The notes below the pieces were generated by a model, which saw nothing but the letters and a program-made list of their open reading frames with translations, was not told the origin of the DNA and made no database searches. Of a DNA stretch of 59,875 nt, positions 26,538 to 49,795 are shown piece by piece. Source of the stretch: an uncultured Synechococcus sp. (lineage in GTDB: Bacteria > Cyanobacteriota > Cyanobacteriia > PCC-6307 > Cyanobiaceae); assembly GCA_913050565.1 (NCBI GenBank), contig CAJWZW010000003.1, forward strand, positions 1 through 59,875, read 5' to 3'. Positions within the stretch are counted from its first letter, which is position 1; the number at the start of each line of letters is the position of its first letter. The position numbers and the translations under genes were made by a program.

Positions 26538-27485
26538 TTGATGCGATCAGCTTCTAACCGCAGAGGAATCATCCTGGCCGGAGGCAGCGGCACCAGGCTT
26601 CACCCGATCACCCAGGCGGTGAGCAAGCAACTGTTGCCGGTTTACGACAAGCCGATGATTTACTACCCGCTGAGCACGTTGATGCTGGCGGGGATCAACG
26701 AGGTGCTGATCATCACCACGCCCCACGACCAGGCCGCATTTGAACGGTTGCTGGGAGACGGCAGCCGGTGGGGAATGAGGATTGACTACGCGGTGCAACC
26801 GAGCCCTGATGGCCTGGCCCAGGCCTTCCTCATTGGTGCCGATTTTCTCGGCGGAGCGCCAGCGGCCCTCGTGCTCGGAGACAACCTGTTCCACGGCCAT
26901 GACCTTGTGCCGCAGCTTGTTGGCAGCGACGAGCGTGATCAAGGCGCCACGGTGTTCGCTTATCCGGTCAGTGATCCCGAGCGCTATGGCGTGGCGGAAT
27001 TCGATGCCAGCGGCAAGGTTCTGAGCCTGGAGGAGAAACCCAGCCGACCCAGAAGCCGTTATGCCGTAACGGGCTTGTATTTCTACGACTCGTCCGTGGT
27101 GGATCGAGCCCAACAGGTGAAGCCATCAGCGCGCGGGGAACTGGAGATCACCGATCTCAATCAGATGTATCTGAATGAGGGCCTGCTGCAGGTGGAACTG
27201 ATGGGTCGCGGCATGGCCTGGCTGGACACCGGCACCTGTGACTCCCTCAACGATGCTGCGAGCTACATCCGCACCCTGGAGCACCGGCAGGGACTCAAAG
27301 TGGGTTGCCCGGAGGAGGTGGCCTGGCGGCAGGGCTGGATCACAGCTGAAAGGCTGGAGGAACTCGCACAACCCTTGAAGAAGAGCGGCTACGGCACTTA
27401 CCTGTTGCAGCTGCTGGAGGAGAGCAGCAGCGACCATGCGGCACTGCAGAGCAGTCTTGAGGTGGAGGCATTTCATGCAGGTTGA
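26538..27485 (+). CDS. rfbA: Glucose-1-phosphate thymidylyltransferase
   Basis: [41 protein letters not shown]. Confidence 0.97.
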
Positions 27486-28065
27486 TCAGCTGAAGTCAAA
27501 TCAGGGGGAGGTGATGGATGGCCCCCTGCTGATCACGCCTTCTGCGTTTGGAGACGAGCGTGGCTGGTTTTTCGAGAGCTGGAATCAACGGACATTGGAT
27601 GAGGCTGTCGGAGAAGCAGTGGTCTTCTCCCAGGACAACCACTCCCGATCAGTGCGGGGTGTTCTGCGCGGTCTGCACTATCAGCTGGCACCGGAGCCCC
27701 AGGCCAAACTGGTGCGTTCCAGCCTCGGCTCGATTTTTGATGTTGCGGTGGACATCCGACGGAGATCACCCACATTCGGGCAATGGGTGGGAGCGGAGCT
27801 CACAGCGGCCAACAAGTCTCAACTCTGGATTCCGGAGGGGTTTGCCCACGGGTTTCTGACCCTGAGCGACGTCGCTGAAGTTCAGTACAAGGCCAGGGGC
27901 TTCTGGAACAAGAGCTGCGAGCGGGCGATTGTTTGGAACGACCCCGACATTGCGATCGACTGGCCGTTGGAGCAGCTGGAGGGTACGGAAGTGAGCCTTT
28001 CGGGGAAAGATGCTGAGGCCGCTGGCTTCAGGACGGCTTTGGCCGCAGAGGATGTCTTCGCATGA
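27475..28065 (+). CDS. rfbC: dTDP-4-dehydrorhamnose 3,5-epimerase
   Basis: [20 protein letters not shown]; start at MQVDQLK. Confidence 0.95.
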
Positions 28066-28964
28066 AAGTTCTGCTCACCGGTGCGGCCGGCCAGCTGGGC
28101 CAGGCGCTGCTCGCATCGGCCCCGCAAGGCCTTGAGCTGTTGGCCAGCAGCCGCAGTGGTGGTGGAGACCTCCTTGCACTCGATTTGTCAGACCCGTCTG
28201 CCTGCAAGGCGGCTGTGGAGGAGTACCGGCCCGATTGGGTTATCAATGCCGGGGCTTACACAGCTGTGGACAAGGCGGAATCAGAGCCGGAGCTGGCGGA
28301 GGCGGTGAATGCCGGTGCGCCCGAGGCCCTGGCGGCTGCTCTCAAGCAGCGGAACGGTCGCCTGCTGCAGCTCAGCACCGACTTTGTGTTCAATGGCCGG
28401 CAAGGGGCGCCCTATCGCACCGATCAGCCCCGCGATCCCCTGGGTGTCTACGGCGCCACCAAAGCCAGAGGCGAGGAGGCCGTGGAAGCAGCCTTTGGCG
28501 GCAACGGTGATGGGTTCATCCTGCGAACCAGCTGGGTGATGGGACCTGTGGGGAGGAACTTTGCCCTCACGATGCTGAGGCTGCACCGCGAAAAAGACGA
28601 ACTGAACGTCGTTGCCGATCAGGTGGGCTGTCCGAGCAGCACCCTCAACCTGGCATCCGCCTGCTGGCAGGCGATTCAGCGCCGCAGCGAAGGCATTGAG
28701 CTCCCCCCCGTGATGCACTGGAGTGATGCCGGTGCTGCCAGCTGGTACGACGTCGCCGTCGCTGTCGGCGAGCTGGGGGTTGAACTCGGCCTGCTGAAGC
28801 AGACAGCCTGCGTCAATCCGATCACAACAATCGACTACCCGACCCCGGCCCGACGACCGGCTTACTCACTGCTGGACTGCCAGGGAAGCAGACAGGATCT
28901 CGATTTAAAGGCCGAGCACTGGCGATCAGCTCTCAGAGATGTTCTGAAGAACGTTGCGCACTGA
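28062..28964 (+). CDS. rfbD: dTDP-4-dehydrorhamnose reductase
   Basis: [51 protein letters not shown]. Confidence 0.95.
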   Translation: MKVLLTGAAGQLGQALLASAPQGLELLASSRSGGGDLLALDLSDPSACKAAVEEYRPDWVINAGAYTAVDKAESEPELAEAVNAGAPEALAAALKQRNGRLLQLSTDFVFNGRQGAPYRTDQPRDPLGVYGATKARGEEAVEAAFGGNGDGFILRTSWVMGPVGRNFALTMLRLHREKDELNVVADQVGCPSSTLNLASACWQAIQRRSEGIELPPVMHWSDAGAASWYDVAVAVGELGVELGLLKQTACVNPITTIDYPTPARRPAYSLLDCQGSRQDLDLKAEHWRSALRDVLKNVAH

Positions 28965-29000
28965 ATTCAGGACCTGACCACTCCTCAAGACCTCTCAACC

Positions 29001-30062
29001 ATGACCGCCTCACTGCCGAATGCCGCTGAATTACTTGGATCACGCCGCAGGATCCTCGTCACGGGCGGCGCGGGCTTCATTGGTGGAGCCGTGGTGCGCA
29101 GGTTGCTGCGTGAAAGCGATGCCGTCGTGTTCAACCTCGACAAGATGGGATATGCCAGTGATCTGAGCTCGATTGAGGCGGTGCTGGCCGATCTTGGATC
29201 CGATCATTCAGAACGGCATCAGCTGCTGAAGGTCGACCTCGCCGACGCTGAAGCGGTTCGAGTTGCGGTTCAAACGGCAGATCCGGATCTCGTGATGCAT
29301 CTGGCTGCTGAAAGCCATGTGGACCGATCAATCGCAGGCCCGGGTGTCTTCATCGAAAGCAATGTGACCGGGACCTACAACCTTCTGCAGGCTGTACGCG
29401 AACACCACGAACAGCTCAACGATGAACGCCAGGCCCAGTTCCGTCTGCATCACATCAGCACCGATGAAGTGTTCGGGTCACTGGGAAGGGAAGGACGTTT
29501 CTGCGAGACCACTCCCTACGATCCGCGAAGTCCTTATTCATCAAGCAAAGCTGCCAGCGATCATCTGGTGAGTGCCTGGCATCACACCTATGGATTGCCG
29601 GTGGTGTTGACCAACTGTTCCAACAATTACGGACCCTGGCAATTCCCGGAAAAACTGATCCCCGTGGTCACACTCAAAGCCGCTCAAGGTGAGGCCATTC
29701 CGCTTTACGGCGATGGGCTGAATGTTCGGGATTGGTTGTTCGTGGAAGATCATGTGGATGCTCTTCTGCTTGCGGCCTGCAATGGAACATCCGGACGCAG
29801 CTATTGCGTTGGCGGGTACGGAGAACGAACCAATCGTGAGGTTGTGGAGTGCATCTGCTTGCATCTCGATCATTTGATTCCCACTAAGACGCCCCACAAC
29901 AATCTGATCCAGATGGTGACGGATCGTCCTGGCCATGACAGGCGCTACGCCATTGATCCAAGCCGCATTGAAAACGAACTCGGCTGGTCTCCACGACACG
30001 ACTTCTCTTCAGCGATTGAAGAAACAGTGCGCTGGTTTCTGAATCACTACGGCATCAGTTGA
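29001..30062 (+). CDS. rfbB: dTDP-glucose 4,6-dehydratase
   Basis: ILVTGGAGFIGGAVVRRLL; HLAAESHVDRSI; HISTDEVFGSLG; YSSSKAASDHLV. Confidence 0.96.
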   Translation: MTASLPNAAELLGSRRRILVTGGAGFIGGAVVRRLLRESDAVVFNLDKMGYASDLSSIEAVLADLGSDHSERHQLLKVDLADAEAVRVAVQTADPDLVMHLAAESHVDRSIAGPGVFIESNVTGTYNLLQAVREHHEQLNDERQAQFRLHHISTDEVFGSLGREGRFCETTPYDPRSPYSSSKAASDHLVSAWHHTYGLPVVLTNCSNNYGPWQFPEKLIPVVTLKAAQGEAIPLYGDGLNVRDWLFVEDHVDALLLAACNGTSGRSYCVGGYGERTNREVVECICLHLDHLIPTKTPHNNLIQMVTDRPGHDRRYAIDPSRIENELGWSPRHDFSSAIEETVRWFLNHYGIS

Positions 30063-30158
30063 TCGGCACCGACACACACCACGGAACACTGGTGCCTCCC
30101 TTGAGCAAGGGGAATGAAGGGCATCCCTACGATCAAAGGTTTGGGACGGCATTCTGCG

Positions 30159-31556
30159 ATGGGTGGCCAGCTGCGGCAGGAACACGACAGCATGGGTTGC
30201 GTTGAGGTCCCGGCGGAGGCTCTCTGGGGCGCACAGACCCAGCGCTCCTGCAACAACTTCGCCATCGGCAACCAGCTGATTCCTGCCGAATTGATTCATG
30301 CCCTGGCACGCATCAAGGGATGTTGCGCTGAGATCAACGGTCGCCATGAACTGCTCACAGCACAGCAGGTGCAGGCCATTGAACGCGCCGCAGCAGCCAT
30401 CTCCGAAGGGACACACGACAACCAGTTCCCTCTCAGCGTCTGGCAGACCGGCAGCGGCACTCAGACCAACATGAATGTGAACGAGGTGATCAGCAACCTT
30501 GCCGCCAGGGACACCGGTCACGCCCTTGGCAGCCATAACCCTGTTCACCCCAACGACCACGTCAACCGATCCCAGTCGACCAACGACGCCTTTCCCGCCG
30601 CCATTCATGTGGCAGCCGTTCTTCTGCTGCAGAACGACCTGCTGCCGGAACTGGACCGGCTGATCGCCAGCCTTGACGAGAAGGCCGGCAGCTGGATGGA
30701 CATCGTCAAGATCGGTCGCACCCATCTGCAGGATGCGGTGCCCCTACGCCTCGGAGACGAAGTGAGTGCCTGGAGGGATCAGATCCATCAGGGTCGGGAA
30801 TGGCTGGAGAAGGCTCGGGAGGACATGCTGGCGCTGCCCCTCGGCGGGACAGCCGTGGGCAGCGGCTTGAACACGCCCGCTGGATTTTCCAGCGATGTGG
30901 TGAATCTTCTGGCGGAACGAACAACAACCGCTTTTCATCCGGCGCCGAATCTGTTCGCTGTGATGGCGGGCCATGACGCTCTGGTTCAGGCCATGGCCCA
31001 GCTGCGTCGCCTGGCCGTGAGCCTGCTGAAAATCGCCAACGACATCCGGCTTCTGTCGTGTGGTCCGCGTGCAGGACTCGGTGAACTGCTCCTGCCGGCC
31101 AATGAACCCGGCAGTTCGATCATGCCTGGCAAGGTGAATCCAACCCAGTGCGAAGCCCTTGCGATGGTCTGCACCCAGGTGATCGGACTGGATGCGGCCG
31201 TTGCCGCCGCCGGAGCGGGTGGTCACCTGCAGATGAACGTGTACAAGCCTCTGATCGGCGCCAACCTGCTGCAGGGGATCAATCTGCTGAACGATGCCTG
31301 CCGCTGTTTCCGCCTGAACCTGGTCGACGGAATGAAGCCCGACAGAGAAAGGATCGCAGCCTTTGTCGAACGCTCGCTGATGTTGGTGACAGCCCTCACA
31401 CCCGAGATCGGTTACCGATCGGCCAGCGCTATTGCGCAACATGCCCATCGCGAGGGGCTGAGCCTGCGGGACGCGGCAATGGAGCTGGGTCACATCTCCC
31501 CGGAACGCTTTGATGCGCTGATGAATCCAGCCGTCATGGCGCAACCGCACACCTGA
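30159..31556 (+). CDS. fumC: Class II fumarate hydratase
   Basis: EHDSMGCVEVPAEALWGAQTQRS; GSGTQTNMNVNEVI; GSSIMPGKVNPTQ. Confidence 0.95.
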   Translation: MGGQLRQEHDSMGCVEVPAEALWGAQTQRSCNNFAIGNQLIPAELIHALARIKGCCAEINGRHELLTAQQVQAIERAAAAISEGTHDNQFPLSVWQTGSGTQTNMNVNEVISNLAARDTGHALGSHNPVHPNDHVNRSQSTNDAFPAAIHVAAVLLLQNDLLPELDRLIASLDEKAGSWMDIVKIGRTHLQDAVPLRLGDEVSAWRDQIHQGREWLEKAREDMLALPLGGTAVGSGLNTPAGFSSDVVNLLAERTTTAFHPAPNLFAVMAGHDALVQAMAQLRRLAVSLLKIANDIRLLSCGPRAGLGELLLPANEPGSSIMPGKVNPTQCEALAMVCTQVIGLDAAVAAAGAGGHLQMNVYKPLIGANLLQGINLLNDACRCFRLNLVDGMKPDRERIAAFVERSLMLVTALTPEIGYRSASAIAQHAHREGLSLRDAAMELGHISPERFDALMNPAVMAQPHT

Positions 31557-45223: not shown

Positions 45224-46303
45224 TTGACGACCATGGCGTCCCCGTCGCCAGCGCAGCGAACCGTGTTTCTCCACGTCGGGATGCACAAAACCGCCTCCAC
45301 TTACATCCAGAGGAGGCTGGTGAAAAATCGGGACCTGCTGCAGAAAAACGGCGTTCTGCTTCCTGCTCGCAGACAACAGAACAACACCCTGCTCAAGGCC
45401 ATCGTCCAGGAGCGATGGAAACCATGGGGACGATGGCTGAAACGTGCGGAAGTCAGGACGTGCAATCTGCTGATCTCCCATGAAGCGCTGTCGTCCTCGC
45501 TTCATCAGATCTGTCGCGATGGCGAAACCTCACATGGCCAATGGCTTGCCGATCAACTGAACCGGTGTGGGTGGAAACTCAAGGTGATTGGCTTCATCCG
45601 AGACCAGGAGAGCTACCTCAATTCTCGGTACACCCAGCTCGTCAAACGTCTTGCCGTCCGCTGCGATTTCACCACCTACACCGCGGGGGTGATGCGGGGA
45701 AACACCATCAGTGAATGCGACCTGATCACGCTGTTCGGCTGGCTGACCGGACTGCCCGAGGTTGAAAGGGTGATGATTCCCTTCGGTGCGAGCCGGGATC
45801 ACCACGGCCGCGGGCTTTCCAAGCGTCCGGACCCCTTCCGGCAACTTGCTGAGGAACTCGCACTGCCGGAGGCGGTGATCAGTCGCTGCAAACCCGCTCC
45901 TTCGCGCAATCAACAACCAGGACGTCTTGGCGTTGCGCTGGCTCTGGAAATCAGCAGATTCCTTGAGAGACATCAACCCATTGCGTTGACGCACCATTCG
46001 AAACAACTGCGGGGAGGGATTGAACGAATGGCCAAGGCCAAGGGATGGCCGGCTGAACCCTTCAATGGACTGGAGAGCAGCATTCAGCAGGCGATTCGCC
46101 ATCGATACGAGGCAAGCAACGCCGAGTTCTGCCGATGCTTCTGGCCTGAAATGACCTGGAGTGAGTTATTCGAGAGCCACCGAAAGGAATCTTCTGAACC
46201 CAGCGGAACATCAAGAGAAGAAGATGTTGAGCTGAATGCTTGCCGCAGGAAGGTCATCGCCGATAATCTCCCGGCCCAGATGGTGAATGAGCTTCCGGGA
46301 TGA
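45224..46303 (+). CDS. Sulfotransferase-like protein
   Basis: PAPS 5'-loop-like VFLHVGMHKTASTYIQ; 3'-binding-like VIGFIRDQESYLNSRYTQLV. Confidence 0.7.
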   Translation: MTTMASPSPAQRTVFLHVGMHKTASTYIQRRLVKNRDLLQKNGVLLPARRQQNNTLLKAIVQERWKPWGRWLKRAEVRTCNLLISHEALSSSLHQICRDGETSHGQWLADQLNRCGWKLKVIGFIRDQESYLNSRYTQLVKRLAVRCDFTTYTAGVMRGNTISECDLITLFGWLTGLPEVERVMIPFGASRDHHGRGLSKRPDPFRQLAEELALPEAVISRCKPAPSRNQQPGRLGVALALEISRFLERHQPIALTHHSKQLRGGIERMAKAKGWPAEPFNGLESSIQQAIRHRYEASNAEFCRCFWPEMTWSELFESHRKESSEPSGTSREEDVELNACRRKVIADNLPAQMVNELPG

Positions 46304-47097
46304 TCAAAAATTCCTTGTCCCGGCCGCTGATATCACTTTGCGACATCAGTCGAGATGTCAACAGCAGCAAAGACAACGTCAGACGTCTGCTTAAAAATGT
46401 GAGCTGGGAACTTCAGGAAGGGCAGAGAGTCGGGGTGATCGCTGAATCAATGCAGGAAGCCCATGCCTTTCTCGATTGCGCAGCGGGAATAACAACACCA
46501 CAGAGAGGACATGTCTCCATCCAGGCCCATGTGAGCTGGCCTCTGGGATCGAAGGGAGGATTGTCCAGCGTTCTCAGCGGCCGACAGAACGCTCGTTTCC
46601 TGCAGGGTGTCTATGGCCGTGGTGGACAGCAACGCAACGAACTCGATCAGATTGAAAAACTGGCGGATCTGGAGAAGAACTATTTCGACAAACCTCTCAA
46701 GAGCTACAACAAATACATGCGAGCAAGGTTTTATTTAGCAGTCTCGCTGGTCTTCGATTTTGATGTGTATGTGATACCTCAGCAGTTCGCCTGGAAATCA
46801 AACACAAGCTCTGAAAAAGTTCTTCGACTGCATCAAGCTCTGAGGGATCGAACGTCCGGTAAATCGATCCTGATGACCAACACCGACTTCAGCTTTCTTG
46901 GACAGTTCTGCGACGAAGGGATCGTGCTGGATCAGGGATCCATCGCTTACTCAGGATCCTTCTCCGACTGCCGAGCCTGGTACGAAGCCAACATCAGCAA
47001 GGCTCCGGAAGAAGACATCGACCTGCAGCTTGATCCTGAAGAGACAGTTCCGACCACCGAACTGGAGTCGGACATCCTCGAGGACGACCTGTGGTGA
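46300..47097 (+). CDS. KpsT-like ABC ATP-binding-subunit homolog with degenerate catalytic motifs (pseudo-ATPase)
   Basis: RVGVIAESMQEAHAFLDCAAGITTPQRGHVSIQAHVSWPLGSKGGLSSVLSGRQNARFLQGVYG collinear with KpsT but without Walker A/B residues. Confidence 0.75.
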   Translation: MIKNSLSRPLISLCDISRDVNSSKDNVRRLLKNVSWELQEGQRVGVIAESMQEAHAFLDCAAGITTPQRGHVSIQAHVSWPLGSKGGLSSVLSGRQNARFLQGVYGRGGQQRNELDQIEKLADLEKNYFDKPLKSYNKYMRARFYLAVSLVFDFDVYVIPQQFAWKSNTSSEKVLRLHQALRDRTSGKSILMTNTDFSFLGQFCDEGIVLDQGSIAYSGSFSDCRAWYEANISKAPEEDIDLQLDPEETVPTTELESDILEDDLW

Positions 47098-49078: not shown

Positions 49079-49779
49079 TTGAAACAGTTCAACGTGAAAG
49101 GCAAGGGTTTCCTTTACCTCCCGGAACACTCACTTGTCTTCGCTCGAATCCCCAAGTGCGCCAATACATCCATCAAGACACGTTTATCCACTCTGATTTC
49201 AACCAAAAACGTCCAACATCCACGGCAGAACCGCATCCTTGAGCCAACCAATGATCTGTTCTGGAGAAAGTGCACCAAACAAGCTCGCTGGCTCAAGCCT
49301 GATCAATACACAGCTCTTTATCACTCCGTGACTTCATTCACCGTGATCAGAAACCCACTCAGCCGACTTCAATCCTGCTACAGAGAAAAAGTCCTGAGGG
49401 ACAAGGTTTTTCCATCGATGAAAAGGCTCGGATATCGCAACGACATGTCGTTTGAAAACTTTGTTGAATTCACCTGCAATCTCGCCTTACACGAGATGGA
49501 TGTTCATACACAACCGCAGACTTTTCTGATAACAGATTCAAAAGGAAGACTGCCCCATTTCATTGCCAGACTTGAACATCTTGATCAGGACTGGAACACC
49601 TTCAGCGCATTGATGCGGGGCAGACATGTTGATCTCGGAGGAACCCTGCCGAGGCTCAACAAAAGCCGGGATCCTGCCAGCTCACCATGCATCAGCCGTC
49701 CGCTTTCACCCACCGTTCAACGGCAGTACGAACTCACCTACGGCTCCGACATCAAGCTGTACGAAGCCACCATGGAGCC

Positions 49780-49795
<16 letters not shown>
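49079..49795 (+). CDS. Sulfotransferase family 2-like protein (TTG start in track)
   Basis: [22 protein letters not shown] loop; [18 protein letters not shown] 3'-phosphate motif. Confidence 0.82.

Follow-up and report, generated by a model that had tools for sequence, protein, structure and literature searches.

A KpsT-like protein that lacks the catalytic motifs of its ATPase relatives is conserved with capsule-export genes in Cyanobiaceae

Capsule-export ATPases of the KpsT type have a relative in Cyanobiaceae, here termed dKpsT (degenerate KpsT), in which every catalytic motif has been replaced while the gene has stayed intact and under purifying selection. The sequence comparisons set out below make it probable that dKpsT is a pseudo-ATPase that a group-2-like capsule system has kept as a subunit, catalysis having been lost once, early in an exporter lineage specific to this family. 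The gene lies in a 59,875-nucleotide stretch of DNA from an uncultured Synechococcus sp. (contig CAJWZW010000003.1 of assembly GCA_913050565.1; the window), directly behind a second open reading frame:

45224..46303, forward strand: sulfotransferase-like gene of 359 amino acids, overlapping the dKpsT gene by ATGA; its HxGxHKTASTxIQ motif resembles the PAPS-binding motif of sulfotransferases
46300..47097, forward strand: dKpsT, a KpsT-like pseudo-ATPase of 265 amino acids; ATG start, intact reading frame

The initial annotation of this DNA had described the frame as intact and joined to its upstream neighbor, and the sequence bears this out, the ATG start of dKpsT and the stop of the upstream frame sharing the letters ATGA. 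Coding on the reverse strand of the locus was ruled out, as stops interrupt it.

The homology of dKpsT to KpsT is far above chance, as the collinearity with capsule-export ATPases proposed at the outset had implied. The protein matches the KpsT structures 8tsh/8tsi in the PDB at E=1e-22 over residues 28-236 (phmmer), NCBIfam models of galactan, TagH and VexC ATPases at E=1e-17 to 1e-8, and one canonical cyanobacterial KpsT at 3e-26 across 209 residues (BLASTP); a profile of the dKpsT family finds 8tsh at 6e-34. No match to Pfam ABC_tran (PF00005) is listed, the gathering score not being reached, which is expected because the catalytic motifs are gone. An AlphaFold2 model, suggested earlier as a check and built here with ten family members, has the fold of an ABC nucleotide-binding domain (NBD) with a pLDDT of 79; its top Foldseek matches are KpsT, the best PDB chains being 8tsl_A and 8tsh_A (TM-score 0.83-0.86, normalised by target length). 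Sequence and predicted fold both place the window's protein in the KpsT/Wzt/TagH group. A more divergent type-B relative is also predicted to adopt the NBD fold, with structural matches to KpsT and TagH, and a viral structure library returned nothing for dKpsT beyond generic ABC proteins.

Alignment to canonical KpsT locates four sites at which the catalytic machinery has been replaced:

46441..46467, forward strand: former P-loop (Walker A), residues 48-56, AESMQEAHA, aligned to GxNGAGKST; Lys and Ser/Thr lost
46705..46731, forward strand: former ABC signature, YNKYMRARF; canonical YSSGMRxRL/V (YSSGMRSRV aligned)
46765..46800, forward strand: former Walker B and D-loop, VYVIPQQFAWKS; canonical VYLIDEVTSAGD
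46864..46890, forward strand: former H-loop, SILMTNTDF; canonical DFIMVDHNL

The register in which these replacements had first been read is thus correct. The Walker B core reads VYVIPQ against the canonical VYLIDE, the H-loop core MTNTD against MVDHN, and inspection of the whole protein disclosed no Walker A or B motif elsewhere, the presence of which would have spoken against a pseudo-ATPase. The loss is a property of the family: neither Walker A (GxxGxGK[ST]) nor the Walker B Asp and catalytic Glu occurs in any of 33 dKpsT proteins, so that all 33 have lost their motifs as compared with none of 11 canonical KpsT proteins. The signature pattern [LY]S[SG]G, absent from the window's protein (YNKYM), survives only in some relatives from genus g30, as YSSGM, YTSGM or YSVGM; since some of these retain YSSGM without a P-loop, the P-loop may have gone first. 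The H-loop His, replaced within TNTD in the window's protein, is not conserved across the family, and in some clade-A relatives a His stands one column off its position.

All of the relatives found, 33 in five Cyanobiaceae genera, share this loss of motifs and form one clade with 100/100 support. Among 34 genomes searched from the window's own genus, eight type A or A-like proteins were recovered, the window's included; the other seven are 44-73% identical to it, and its nearest orthologues 71-73%. Most of the remaining genomes carry relatives of types B and C that are roughly 20-30% identical and have no P-loop. Sources include Synechococcus single-cell genomes and metagenome-assembled genomes (MAGs; for example AG-679-D13, AG-670-B23 and MED650) as well as Vulcanococcus sp. 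Clear-D1. A contig search with the single window protein as query recovered no relatives, its patterns being too specific, and a sample of the phylum outside Cyanobiaceae yielded distant permease matches only, with no origin beyond the family.

Frameshifts in most orthologues would have pointed to a pseudogene; none is frameshifted, and the frames are open and free of stops. Pairwise dN/dS (Nei-Gojobori) is 0.08-0.20 for dKpsT rather than neutral, in keeping with the initial view that this is not a decaying gene. KpsM, the permease, gives 0.03-0.09 in the same pairs, dKpsT evolving the faster of the two, and neighboring housekeeping genes in clade A mostly 0.01-0.06. Between the window's protein and its nearest orthologues the ratio is about 0.09-0.10, a rough value with dS near saturation, so that a recent relaxation could be missed; the replacement motifs are nearly unchanged in these comparisons. 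dKpsT thus combines two marks of a pseudoenzyme, loss of catalytic residues and continued purifying selection. Two further segments stand out:

46534..46614, forward strand: conserved block SWPxGxxGGL...LSGRQN..FL..VY, residues 79-105, in the former Q-loop and permease-contact region
47002..47094, forward strand: acidic C-terminal tail, predicted to be disordered (pLDDT below 50, residues 235-265), ending ...DDLW

The conserved block makes up a tenth of the protein, yet of the 21 columns best conserved across the family, 10 fall within it (residues 80-105; P=2e-6); by analogy with ABC transporter architecture, it may be the surface that contacts KpsM. Within clades, few segments are better conserved than the loops that replace the former P-loop and signature (94% in clade A and 85% in clade B; the former signature site alone has 94% mean identity inside clade A), which speaks for a new function and against decay. 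Thirteen of the last 35 residues of the window's protein are Asp or Glu. Acidic tails occur in most dKpsT proteins, and every clade-A and A-like member ends in LW, a possible candidate docking peptide.

In most relatives dKpsT is the first gene of an operon dKpsT-KpsM-KpsE, in which KpsM is identified by a profile match to 8tsh_C (1.5e-46) and KpsE by TIGR01010 (4e-47); neither is truncated, and purifying selection on both is strong. A KpsM profile matched in 63 of 398 Cyanobiaceae genomes surveyed. Of 20 loci read outside the window's genus, one was cut off; 11 carry an intact KpsT between KpsM and KpsE (KpsM-KpsT-KpsE in 10, the mirror image in one), and eight, from genera g9, g30, g34 and g45, have dKpsT-KpsM-KpsE. 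Trees of KpsT and of KpsM each separate the dKpsT systems from the canonical ones with 100/100 support, and the dKpsT and KpsM sub-trees broadly agree; the agreement extends to clade A, whose dKpsT genes are not linked to KpsM and lie ~17-19 kb from any KpsM and KpsE present.

The rest of the capsule pathway follows the same distribution. Among 19 near-complete genomes of the genus, 15 have dKpsT, KpsM and KpsC/KpsS (PF05159) together, exactly the same 15 for each, and four have none of them (Fisher P=2.6e-4); all 15 also encode a KpsD-like Poly_export protein, as does one of the four others. At the level of the genus, the KpsC/KpsS Kdo-linker enzymes and KpsD/OPX of a group-2-type pathway are therefore encoded. 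The four remaining genomes (G013, G004, G028 and G029; L029-L032) carry a canonical Wzt-type ATPase, which we read as a swap of surface-polysaccharide systems. The KpsC/S/D locus also encodes an acyl carrier protein (ACP), a ketosynthase (KAS), an acyltransferase-like protein and DUF6716 glycosyltransferases. At one such locus (L222:9319-11469) KpsS is fused to a PlsC-type acyltransferase (PF05159 + PF01553) and adjoins genes for an ACP, a ketosynthase and an OlsF-like acyltransferase; the lipid anchor of the capsule is possibly unusual.

A Walker B mutant (E151Q) of the canonical exporter abolishes secretion (PMC11041684), and a dead NBD should for this reason block export in the absence of another energy source. 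One alternative to a subunit that has lost catalysis for good, which we hold to be possible if rather unlikely, is that the exporter is still driven by ATP through another ABC ATPase in trans, either a shared NBD or the active half of a heterodimer, dKpsT being the inactive half or an adaptor. Shared ABC ATPases exist in other systems, each genome here encodes many generic NBDs, and the constraint on KpsM and KpsE, together with the presence of KpsC, KpsS and KpsD genes, would fit this. The survey of canonical KpsT and KpsM proposed in the initial annotation nevertheless found KpsM alongside dKpsT and, with a KpsT/Wzt family model and one canonical cyanobacterial KpsT as queries, no canonical KpsT, and no KpsT/Wzt-type ATPase, in the dKpsT genomes of the genus; a second canonical KpsT acting in trans was set aside on this ground. 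Comparison of one dKpsT genome (G030) with the KpsM-less G004 likewise speaks against a dedicated partner: of 23 ABC proteins read, 21 have orthologues in G004 (60-89% identity) and the other two, rather than free NBDs, are MsbA-like exporters of the fused type, so that no stand-alone ABC ATPase private to the dKpsT genome was found in this pair. For two further ABC loci of G030, outside the 23, G004 has counterparts of matching length. The KpsC/S/D locus was ruled out as the place of a hidden ATPase, no P-loop occurring in the eight loci read, and a 252-residue NBD that seemed common in dKpsT genomes was dropped, being unlisted for G001, G003 and G030.

The KpsM partners of dKpsT differ from canonical KpsM at a site of direct consequence. 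Canonical KpsM Arg94, called essential, tolerates neither Lys nor Ala, and Lys disrupted export (PMC11041684); the partners of dKpsT have Lys at this position, or Gln in three, so the transport step itself may have changed. Together with the loss of the ATPase, this substitution lends some weight to a somewhat more doubtful alternative, namely that dKpsT-KpsM-KpsE has ceased to be a translocator and now binds or anchors glycolipid, or acts as a sensor, while a different exporter, for instance one like MsbA, flips the capsule lipid. The ACP, KAS and acyltransferase genes of the KpsC/S/D locus, hinting at an unusual lipid anchor, would fit this, and G030 encodes an MsbA-like fused exporter (L272:720-2465) that has no reciprocal best hit in the KpsM-less G004 and is a possible alternative glycolipid flippase; that correlation, however, comprises two genomes, and KpsM keeps the equivalent of Arg89 in nearly all members of the window's genus and remains positively charged.

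The window's own lineage departs from the arrangement of its relatives. The initial annotation had placed dKpsT in surface-polysaccharide export as a scaffold or regulatory partner; the export role is supported in the relatives, by their dKpsT-KpsM-KpsE operons and co-occurrence with KpsC/KpsS, whereas the window's own MAG, at 87% completeness, yielded no KpsM, KpsE, KpsC/S or KpsD, and a part as scaffold or regulator remains our inference. The site that holds the export genes in relatives is recognisable:

30063..30113, no strand assigned: junction of the rfb sugar cluster and fumarase, at which relatives have KpsM/KpsE or a dKpsT-KpsM-KpsE block (window 26538-31556 compared with L080, L082 and L073)

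Here the rfb sugar-nucleotide cluster abuts fumarase directly (26538-31556), where relatives have DUF1997-dKpsT-KpsM-KpsE or KpsM-KpsE, and the capsule-export block looks to have been lost from this lineage. The species may thus have lost its capsule machinery and kept dKpsT, or the missing genes may lie in the unassembled part. That dKpsT is here a remnant of a lost system, drifting toward a pseudogene, would agree with the absent partners and the closed junction, and near-saturated dS could hide a recent relaxation; we nonetheless judge it improbable, given the intact frame, the identity and dN/dS to its nearest orthologues, the nearly unchanged replacement motifs and the incompleteness of the MAG.

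The sulfotransferase-like gene lies immediately 5' of dKpsT in all seven clade-A genomes, and G016 and G020 carry paralogues of it next to the KpsM locus. Its 359-residue product has no match in Pfam, NCBIfam or the PDB, a PDB profile search giving one chance hit, so the assignment rests on the motif. Two genes downstream of dKpsT, at 49079-49795, lies a Sulfotransfer_2 gene (PF03567, 1.8e-21). Sulfotransferase-type genes on both sides of dKpsT suggest a sulfated surface glycan.

That dKpsT still binds and hydrolyses nucleotide at a non-canonical site is highly improbable, as the predicted ABC fold is intact but the P-loop Lys and Ser/Thr, the Walker B Asp and the catalytic Glu are absent, the H-loop His is not conserved and the signature Ser-Gly is gone outside genus g30.

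On the reading we prefer, catalysis would have been lost once, early in a Cyanobiaceae-specific KpsT-KpsM-KpsE lineage, and the NBD-like fold retained as a subunit. The conserved SWPxG..GGL block would anchor dKpsT to the KpsM dimer on its cytosolic side, and dKpsT would hold or gate the KpsM-KpsE cage, while other partners, for example enzymes of glycan synthesis or sulfation, would bind to the acidic tail and to the former catalytic loops, which are conserved in novel forms particular to each clade. Energy for export would come from a shared ATPase in trans, from polymer synthesis or from the envelope. In the window's lineage dKpsT appears to have been relocated beside the sulfotransferase-like gene, and in this species, if the absence of KpsM and KpsE from the MAG is real, it may act without KpsM.

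Among known systems, the KpsMT-KpsE exporter of Schlegelella thermodepolymerans (8tsh/8tsi/8tsl; PMC11041684) provides the best match in sequence and fold; its KpsT shares with dKpsT the SWPxG..GG..L block and, in the relatives, the KpsM and KpsE partners, but dKpsT has lost all catalytic motifs, bears an acidic C-terminal tail and, in the window's clade, is unlinked from KpsM. Canonical cyanobacterial KpsT (L121-L131) belongs to the same system family, in Cyanobiaceae and with homologous KpsM and KpsE, yet has intact GxNGAGKST, YSSGM, D-E and H, stands on the opposite side of the 100/100 branch and occurs in M-T-E rather than T-M-E gene order. Wzt, TagH and TarH, from O-antigen and teichoic-acid exporters, resemble dKpsT in fold and moderately in sequence and are themselves active ATPases. 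ABC transporters of the ABCG5/G8 type have one functional site left per transporter. Loss of catalysis at a retained NBD site thus has a parallel in such proteins with one degenerate site (PMC7756502), although dKpsT systems yielded no further intact NBD from that family. Dore et al. (PMC7522525, PMC10119275) reported kps loci in marine Synechococcus that resemble those of E. coli group 2/3 and are missing from CRD1 strains; these are likely the same as, or overlap with, the loci considered here, and in the main-text passages on them no mention of KpsT degeneracy was found. A phylum-wide survey could not tell KpsT from other ATPases (PMC4594306). We found no prior description of a degenerate cyanobacterial KpsT in the open-licence literature searched, so an earlier one is possible. 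Annotation pipelines will miss the gene, which has no Pfam match, or possibly call it an ATPase.

ABC transporters are defined by ATP hydrolysis. Across several marine and freshwater cyanobacterial genera, however, the permease, the cage and the Kdo-linker enzymes of a capsule exporter have been kept although its sole dedicated ATPase is dead, and the conservation of that dead subunit implies either an unrecognised means of powering the transporter or the conversion of the NBD into a scaffold. We tentatively suggest, as a possibility short of probable, that this picocyanobacterial exporter lineage functions although its own NBD hydrolyses no ATP, that polymer synthesis or another source would energise KpsM-KpsE, and that the dead KpsT may serve as a recruiting platform for the enzymes of glycan synthesis and sulfation.
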